Shown: piece after piece, positions 39,048 to 40,816 of the stretch
Numbering within the stretch: position 1 is the first letter of the stretch
How the letters are laid out: each line of letters starts with the position of its first letter
DNA from: Bdellovibrio sp.
GTDB taxonomy: Bacteria; Bdellovibrionota; Bdellovibrionia; Bdellovibrionales; Bdellovibrionaceae
Reading direction: 5' to 3'
Assembly (NCBI GenBank): GCA_014376435.1
Contig: JACMRL010000016.1
Location: forward strand, 1-64,000
DNA: 64,000 bases
Notes under the pieces: model-generated
Told to the model about the DNA's origin: nothing
Seen by the model: only the letters and a program-made list of their open reading frames with translations
Databases searched by the model: none
Program-made: the position numbers and the translations under genes

Positions 39048-39704
39048 TTAGTTATATTCGCAACTTAAAGACTCTTGATCTGACCCTGCTAACTGCACCC
39101 GATTATCATTCGGCGCTAAATGCGTTGCCATCACCGTACGGCCTTCGCGATGTTTAAGGCCTAAAAAATGCCCCATCTCGTGAAGAATAAGTGCTTCGAA
39201 ACTGTAACCATCACTCGGGGATCTACCTTGCTTTTTAAAGCTGGCGGAACCGGTCAGAACTTGAGGATTTTGATCATAGTAACTGAAGTCAGCAGCGTTG
39301 ACACGAATGTCCGCTTCTTGAATCTCATCACCCGCCCAGTAGACAGATGTGCGACCTTGCTCAGAAGTTTTATCTGACTCCCAATCGGATAAAAAGTAAA
39401 TACCATTTTTTTGATCTCTGGCCAAAGTTCCTAATTGTGAAGAATCTTCAGAGATTTCAATTACTTTACGGCCAGCGTTTATTTCCCAAGTCTTTGCGGC
39501 GCGGTAAATTGCCGGACGTAGAGTTGCCGGCACCGAAGAGTGAATATAAAGTGTAACCGGTTGCTTGGTTTTCCACGCGACACGCTGGCCATAGATATTT
39601 TGAACAAAACCGCAATCATTTTGGTTTTTTGGCGCGCACGAAGAGGCAAATATCGCGATGATGATTCCAAAAGTAATGATAATGATTTGAACAGTTTTCT
39701 TCAT
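39048..39704 (-). CDS. Matrixin-like zinc metalloprotease, lipoprotein
   Basis: The signal peptide ends in a lipobox AIFASSC (Cys 23). The catalytic motif HEMGHFLGLKH (175-185) is the full metzincin HExxHxxGxxH, followed at about 191 by a VMAT Met-turn. The 218-residue length is a bare catalytic domain, with no hemopexin or PG-binding part and no visible prodomain cysteine switch, as in several bacterial matrixins. It is likely anchored in the outer membrane and cleaves proteins outside the cell or in prey. The start codon overlaps the stop codon of a small upstream ORF (ATGA). Confidence 0.88.
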   Translation of the reverse strand: MKKTVQIIIITFGIIIAIFASSCAPKNQNDCGFVQNIYGQRVAWKTKQPVTLYIHSSVPATLRPAIYRAAKTWEINAGRKVIEISEDSSQLGTLARDQKNGIYFLSDWESDKTSEQGRTSVYWAGDEIQEADIRVNAADFSYYDQNPQVLTGSASFKKQGRSPSDGYSFEALILHEMGHFLGLKHREGRTVMATHLAPNDNRVQLAGSDQESLSCEYN

Positions 39705-39904
39705 CTATCTTTCCATATTTCAAATCTCTGACCATTCATTGATCTTTCAAATCGAATGCTTTGATTTTTACCGATTCGAAATGAGATGAAAAATGCTACA
39801 GGACTATTCTCGCTAACACCCCTTACAAAGAAATGGTTATACGAGCTATTAGGCAGACCTAAGAGGTAAATCGCACCGCTTCTGTACTCTAAAGTCACAG
39901 TCAT
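39701..39904 (-). CDS. Small protein resembling a KTSC domain, coupled to the protease
   Basis: From an ATG at 39904 the ORF encodes 67 residues; an in-frame GTG at 39958 is possible. The sequence YRSGAIYLLGLPNSSYNHFF, then S-x-x-SPVAFF, follows the KTSC pattern F-x-x-G-x-x-Y-x-Y-x-x-V-P-x-x-x-Y-x-x-L. Its stop codon shares ATGA with the start of the metalloprotease gene, which suggests coupled translation. There is no good Shine-Dalgarno. If real it would be a very small RNA- or lysyl-tRNA-associated-type domain; the evidence is pattern only. Confidence 0.4.
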   Translation of the reverse strand: MTVTLEYRSGAIYLLGLPNSSYNHFFVRGVSENSPVAFFISFRIGKNQSIRFERSMNGQRFEIWKDR

Positions 39905-39959
39905 AGCCCAATTAAAGGTTCCAAGTTGGCACCGTATTCTGTATCTAGTTGAAAACACT

Positions 39960-40011
39960 AAAGTTCAAAAATTGGCAAGGCAGTTGCTATGTATTATTGT
40001 AAGACAAAGCT
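39960..40011. other. Intergenic DNA leading into the structured leader
   Basis: No ORF or promoter of clear quality is seen here. The stem-loop-rich region that starts at 40012 is described separately. Confidence 0.4.
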
Positions 40012-40228
40012 GGTAACCCCGGCAACCTTCACTCCTCCACGATCGTGGAACCCTATGAGTGAAAACTTACCCATCACATACTTCCTTCGCTGGAAGGGGA
40101 AAAACCCCCGGCCTCCAGCCCGCGCGCAAAATGAAAGTGAAATGATCTGTCATGACCCGCGTGCGCCCTTGACCATGTCAATAAGCTTTACGAAGATAAG
40201 TTTAAACAAATTTCTGTCATCGACAGAA
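40012..40228 (+). ncRNA. Candidate structured leader RNA upstream of a lipoprotein gene
   Basis: Several nested stems can be read directly. GGTAA (40012-40016) pairs with TTACC (40067-40071); inside it TTCACTC (40028-40034) pairs with GAGTGAA (40057-40063), and inside that CCAC-GATC-GTGG (40037-40048). A second stem-loop joins GCTGGA (40089-40094) to TCCAGC (40114-40119) around GGGG/CCCC. A third joins GCGCGC (40122-40127) to GTGCGC (40161-40166). A last hairpin TTCTGTC-ATC-GACAGAA (40212-40228) touches the AGGAGG ribosome site. GACAGA can also pair with TCTGTC at 40146-40151, giving two mutually exclusive states. The GC content is above that of the flanks. No known riboswitch class was recognised. 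Confidence 0.5.
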
Positions 40229-40237
40229 GGAGGACTT

Positions 40238-40816
40238 ATGAAGCTAAAGAATTTAGTTTTAGCGGCTACTGTATCCGTAACGATGGGTTTATTTTTATCA
40301 TCATGCGCATCGAATCCAAATAAAGCAGAAAAAATTGATACTCGTCTCGATCACTCAGGCCAAGTCAGTGGCGACACTGAACTAGGCGTTAAAAACGGAA
40401 ACATGGTCGTTCAGAAAAAAGTTATGATGAACGAAGAACTTCGCAAATTACAATATGAAGTCTACGAATTAGAAGACCGCGTTTACGGAAACCGCAAATA
40501 TGGATCATTAGGCTTGTACGGCGTACTGCGCGATTGCAAATTGCAATTATCAGATCCTAAAAACGGCGGAGACGGGAAATTAATGTGGACCGAACCAATC
40601 GACCGCGTCACTGATAAAGAAGACGATTTTAAAATCGGTTTAGACGAAAGCAAAAAATTAGTGGGCGTGTCTGAGGAATTTTTATCGGAGCGTATCGCGC
40701 GCTTCCGCGGTTACAAATCTTTATTAGCTAAACGCCAAGATGAATACGAAGAAAAACTAGCAATTTGCAAATCGGATTTAAAAAGCCGCATCAGTAAAGC
40801 AACAACTAGTAACTAA
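40238..40816 (+). CDS. Lipoprotein with coiled-coil region
   Basis: The ATG at 40238 follows GAAGGAGG, a near-perfect ribosome site, and gives 192 residues; the longer upstream ORF runs through the structured leader and is not protein-like. The signal peptide ends in a lipobox LFLSSC (Cys about 20). The mature protein is helical and charged with a YEVYELEDRVYGNRKYG segment and a C-terminal coil. No family is recognised. It is probably controlled by the leader RNA, and it is followed after 22 bases by a small exported protein. Confidence 0.75.
   Translation: MKLKNLVLAATVSVTMGLFLSSCASNPNKAEKIDTRLDHSGQVSGDTELGVKNGNMVVQKKVMMNEELRKLQYEVYELEDRVYGNRKYGSLGLYGVLRDCKLQLSDPKNGGDGKLMWTEPIDRVTDKEDDFKIGLDESKKLVGVSEEFLSERIARFRGYKSLLAKRQDEYEEKLAICKSDLKSRISKATTSN

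Follow-up and report, generated by a model that had tools for sequence, protein, structure and literature searches.

The locus studied here lies in a window of 64,000 nts, the whole stretch of DNA analysed, from a genome of 2.76 Mb. It raises the question of whether a structured RNA encoded just upstream of a lipoprotein gene belongs to that gene. A sequence-only reading of the window had proposed a leader RNA with two mutually exclusive pairings next to the ribosome site, acting as a switch or thermosensor of the lipoprotein gene. We find that the RNA is a previously undescribed small RNA and not the private switch of the lipoprotein gene. In our preferred reading it is probably a free-standing, usually single-copy RNA, transcribed by sigma-54, likely to act in trans without Hfq, and present through most of Bdellovibrionales. 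Table 1 collects the features of the locus.

Table 1. Features at the small RNA locus, in window coordinates.
Feature	Positions	Strand	Remarks
M10 (matrixin-like) metalloprotease gene	39048-39704	-	Pfam PF00413, E 1e-7; most constant neighbour of the RNA
Sigma-54 (-24/-12) promoter TTGGCAAGGCAGTTGCTA	39972-39989	+	TGG-N8-TTGC; start expected near 39999
Small RNA	39999-40128	+	5' end inferred from the promoter position, 3' end set where conservation stops
17-nt insertion AGCTGGTAACCCCGGCA	40008-40024	+	private to the window genome (0/11 other same-genus sequences); supplies GGTAA
Stem P1, TTCACTC / GAGTGAA	40028-40034 / 40057-40063	+	encloses P2 plus a 3'-side bulge
Hairpin P2, CCAC-GATC-GTGG	40037-40048	+	100% of cells paired; both-side changes in 4/4 pairs (30 sequences)
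C-rich unpaired linker	40064-40088	+	boxes CCCATC 40070-40075 and CTTCC 40081-40085
Hairpin P3, GCTGGAAGGGG / CCCC..TCCAGC	40089-40119	+	both-side changes in all P3 pairs (30 sequences)
Hairpin by the lipoprotein Shine-Dalgarno	40212-40228	+	outside the conserved RNA
Lipoprotein gene	40238-40816	+	ORF; frequent, not constant neighbour of the RNA

A DNA search finds the segment in 11 other genomes of the same genus, and in alignment the small RNA block is kept in 12 same-genus genomes, window copy included. When these sequences are aligned in a common orientation, the conserved block runs from the sigma-54 box through a GCGCGC near 40128, with little conservation beyond it. We find no conserved reading frame in the small RNA. 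The predicted fold of the 261-nt RNA is 4.4 s.d. more stable than those of dinucleotide-shuffled sequences, and the window copy matches our covariance models with E-values that are rough and depend on the model, from 1e-27 to 1e-17. In one Bdellovibrio genome (G077, locus L085) a stretch containing inverted repeats of its own is inserted close to the 5' end of the RNA, roughly where the window has its 17-nt insertion.

The core layout consists of a stem, P1, enclosing the hairpin P2, followed by a C-rich unpaired linker and by the hairpin P3. P1 is the 7-bp stem that the sequence-only reading had pointed out, and the compensatory changes in relatives by which that reading proposed to be judged are found for it, in 3 of its 7 pairs with 12 sequences and in all 7 with 30. 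The large conserved hairpin P3, like the sigma-54 promoter, had gone unremarked. In a MAFFT alignment of the 12 sequences, fitted to no structure, 7 of the 21 pairs show changes on both sides and the covariation score is 0.252; shuffled controls give 0.150 (s.d. 0.016, with 0/500 reaching the observed value) and slid controls at most 0.084. The score is 0.561 for 30 sequences, where 21/21 pairs change on both sides, and 0.608 for 86, against at most 0.125 for the slid versions of each, although these two larger sets were aligned to the model and are therefore biased in favour of the structure. When members are folded one sequence at a time, P1, P2 and P3 are mostly paired, while the linker, the P2 loop and an A-rich loop are about 80-96% unpaired, the linker about 80%. 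Its box, CCYRYC, occurs in at least one copy in 76 of the 86 linkers and in two copies in 41. The comparative evidence firmly supports a predicted fold with P1 and P2, an exposed C-rich linker and P3. The CCUACC/GGUAGG complementarity seen in Bdellovibrio led us to consider a two-state switch in which linker box 2 would pair with the 5' strand of P3. We reject it across the order because the real linkers give less favourable folds with that strand than their shuffled versions (z +3.0, 86 sequences).

P3 would close the 3' end of the RNA. In some lineages, but not in the window genome, it looks like an intrinsic terminator: a T-run follows it in 7 of 50 matches within the family and in 9 of 35 from other families (16/85 in total), against a background of about 7%. 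T-runs are missing from the genus of the window and from most Bdellovibrio, in which transcription could therefore continue into the next gene.

Sigma-54 promoters have the form TGG-N8-TTGC (GG-N10-GC), with transcription starting about 12 nt further on. Counting 12 nt from the GC of the box in the window puts the predicted start at G39999; the sequence-only reading had named a start downstream of 40166 as evidence against itself, and the conserved box places the start well before that. A box lies within 60 nt upstream of 46 of the 50 family matches and of 22 of the 35 matches from other families, compared with 0.34% of random 60-nt windows, and it lies outside the covariance models with which the matches were found. 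The predicted promoter is thus present and conserved, and sigma-54 holoenzyme together with an enhancer-binding protein would transcribe the RNA. At the sequence level what the class calls for is found: besides the box, rpoN is encoded in 27 of 30 relatives, the window genome included, and the activator domain PF00158 in 20/20 genomes, with about 15 matches in the window genome. A close relative, G002, which we take to be Bdellovibrio exovorus JSS, retains the RNA (L071) with the GG and GC of the box lost, so its promoter may be different or broken.

A strict version of the sigma-54 motif has 18 matches in three genomes (L185-L202; 14 in HD100, 2 in G000 and 2 in G002), while the reversed pattern has 0. 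The majority of the remaining sites are followed by a reading frame at a distance of about 130 nt or less, and many of these frames have apparent signal peptides; an envelope-related sigma-54 regulon is a possible interpretation. Upstream of the RNA, a search for NtrC-type palindromes gives one single-mismatch match, in the window only, and a search for a shared dyad motif returns mostly A/T-rich pairs. Between the protease gene and the sigma-54 box, at 39800-39945, there are further blocks conserved in the genus, such as TATTAGG..CCTAAGAGG and TGGCACC, and Bdellovibrio has the block CGCCGCAAAGTGTGGTGCAAAA in the same interval. These are candidates for an enhancer site or for a divergent promoter.

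We searched 141 genomes of Bdellovibrionales, 228 others of the phylum, and seven myxobacterial pxr loci. The third covariance model matches the RNA in 102 of the 141 order genomes, after earlier rounds that found it in 38/66 genomes of the family and then in 92/141 of the order; as a negative control, 0/228 of the other genomes of the phylum are matched by the models. The 39 order genomes that give no match include complete ones, so loss or divergence of the RNA does occur. The copy number is almost always one per genome. Two copies are seen in two genomes only, G054 (L117, L145) and G100 (L134, L139). We take one of the genomes, G060, to be B. bacteriovorus HD100 because its c-di-GMP-I aptamer lies on the strand of the published merRNA and within the coordinates given for it. 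Its copy of the small RNA is matched on the minus strand at 1,199,751-1,199,870, with the protease on one side and isocitrate dehydrogenase on the other. It has the sigma-54 box CTGGCCCGCTGATTGC, and its 5' end is predicted some 25 nt upstream of the match.

What surrounds the RNA varies much more than the RNA itself. A relative of the M10 protease lies near it in 73 genomes, divergent in 60, and in 13 with the RNA segment inverted. In a census of the next recognised gene at 85 loci, that gene shares the strand of the RNA in 45 (isocitrate dehydrogenase in 14, protease in 13, the lipoprotein in 12, a PutA-like gene in 5 and another in 1) and convergent in 29 (response regulator in 19, Hsp33 in 4, and others), with the remaining 11 unassigned. 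The figure of 29 is more safely taken as about 26, since three of the convergent calls, those in HD100 and a pair of close relatives, come from a frame antisense to isocitrate dehydrogenase. The lipoprotein, which matches no Pfam family, is kept in 47 of 60 relatives with identity up to 76%. Four genomes of the same genus (G006, G007, G009 and G011) retain the RNA and have no detectable lipoprotein gene. The changing and often convergent next genes, together with these four genomes, indicate that the lipoprotein is incidental and that in many genomes the RNA cannot lead the next gene. To judge from its gene context, the RNA appears to be independent of its neighbours, with a promoter of its own.

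The readings that tie the RNA to the gene downstream have to be weighed against this variability. We find a two-state switch or thermosensor governing the lipoprotein gene hardly credible. What speaks for it is a stable hairpin in the window, TTCTGTC-ATC-GACAGAA, that touches the AGGAGG at 40228 as the sequence-only reading had described. Among the lipoprotein homologues examined, however, this hairpin occurs only in the window and, partly, in G003. The long-range helix that was to compete with it, TCTGTC:GACAGA, has its TCTGTC at 40146, but it is given a pairing probability of 0.00, whereas the local hairpin reaches about 0.8-1.0. The GGTAA/TTACC closing of P1 can likewise be read in the letters, at 40012 and 40067, but it depends on the insertion private to the window and absent from the 11 same-genus homologues. 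Since each of the alternative pairings is either not conserved or not predicted to form, the RNA persists where no lipoprotein gene is detected, and the neighbours vary, the RNA does not serve the lipoprotein gene as its dedicated switch or thermosensor. Of the earlier proposal there remains a functional structured RNA, and also the statement that it belongs to no known riboswitch class: Rfam 15, searched with its gathering thresholds and also with E-values as high as 5, gives nothing credible in the window, at the RNA locus or in HD100. A broader form of the idea takes the RNA for a 5' leader, transcribed by sigma-54, that would control in cis any gene downstream, isocitrate dehydrogenase in Bdellovibrio and the lipoprotein in the genus of the window. 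The same-strand next genes are often within 100 nt, in most Bdellovibrio the RNA has a leader-like spacing of about 80 nt or less to isocitrate dehydrogenase, and the genus of the window and most Bdellovibrio have no T-run. Against it, some of the convergent genes lie within 50 nt, the RNA stays the same across clades that differ in their downstream gene, some lineages have ends like intrinsic terminators, and the four genomes above have the RNA with no lipoprotein match; we consider this reading unlikely.

For the preferred reading of a free-standing small RNA, action in trans would have to proceed without Hfq. A profile search finds Hfq in 0/30 genomes, with control genomes positive, so the RNA does not qualify as an Hfq-dependent sRNA. 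The C-rich boxes may be the surface that contacts either a protein or G-rich segments of target mRNAs. In a generic anti-Shine-Dalgarno test against 77 ribosome sites, the linker pairs not clearly better than shuffles. This lack of significant complementarity fits a decoy whose repeated CCYRYC boxes would sequester an RNA-binding protein, in the manner of CrcZ or RsmZ, as does the fact that the boxes are repeated, conserved and unpaired and that real linkers avoid pairing with P3. Such a decoy is nevertheless doubtful: each RNA has one or two boxes only and typical decoy RNAs carry more, there is no candidate protein, Hfq is absent, and GGA loops of the CsrA type are not seen. We regard a free-standing ligand-binding RNA as very improbable. 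It has conserved loops in its favour and a precedent in the group, the merRNA of HD100, proposed as a free-standing riboswitch-like RNA (PMC3627812), but no Rfam aptamer matches even at E 5, the hairpins are simple, and few unpaired residues are invariant beyond the P2 loop and the boxes.

If the preferred reading is true, there is a conserved regulatory RNA family for an entire order known for its predators, including Bdellovibrio, and sigma-54 is tied to an RNA regulator in Bdellovibrionales. The RNA is present in the model strain HD100, yet it is missing from the published table of its attack-phase sRNAs (PMC3627812), at whose loci our model matches nothing, and from Rfam 15. That survey retained only intergenic signals enriched in the attack phase and dropped those joined to the downstream gene (PMC3627812). 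Deletion in HD100 is a feasible test of the RNA. The case also shows that a structured leader judged from a single genome can mislead without comparison.

Among known RNAs, several share one aspect or another with the one described here. Qrr, GlmY/GlmZ and CrcZ of the gamma-proteobacteria are sigma-54-dependent and act with Hfq or other gamma-proteobacterial partners. The present RNA resembles them as the sRNA output of a circuit of sigma-54 and an activator, but it has no Rfam match, and no Hfq was found in the 30 genomes searched for it. 6S RNA is likewise an order-wide structured small RNA found once per genome; identity with it is rejected, as 6S has a separate gene at another place in these genomes. 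The merRNA and APsRNA1-7 of HD100 (PMC3627812) are intergenic non-coding RNAs of the same group, but they are at other loci with no match to our model, and merRNA carries a c-di-GMP-I aptamer, which the present RNA does not. Pxr of Myxococcus xanthus, an sRNA predicted to depend on sigma-54, prevents development for as long as nutrients are available (PMC5684412, PMC5568312, PMC11928866). The two RNAs are alike in their length of about 110-130 nt, in having a predicted sigma-54 promoter, and in combining conserved hairpins with an exposed C-rich stretch. Each occupies one locus whose synteny is preserved in its lineage, the bacteria of which are social or predatory, and Hfq is missing from both lineages. 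The C-rich stretch of Pxr is, however, the loop of SL1, while here it is the linker, and Pxr adjoins the NtrC-like pxrR, while the constant neighbour here is the M10 protease; the response regulator found next to the RNA in some genomes is convergent. At the seven myxobacterial pxr loci, model R2 gives no match and model R3 a single chance match of E 1.6, elsewhere in one locus. With sequence and layout different, no model match and no adjoining pxrR, membership in the Pxr family is rejected, and we therefore class the RNA as a new family within the sigma-54-dependent bacterial sRNAs. By analogy, of the known systems it is Pxr that it would work most like. We suggest tentatively, as a possibility short of an expectation, that an RNA controlled by sigma-54 across the order is an ancestral Hfq-free regulator of Bdellovibrionales, which through CCYRYC boxes of a novel type may, like Pxr, gate a decision tied to nutrients or to the life cycle.
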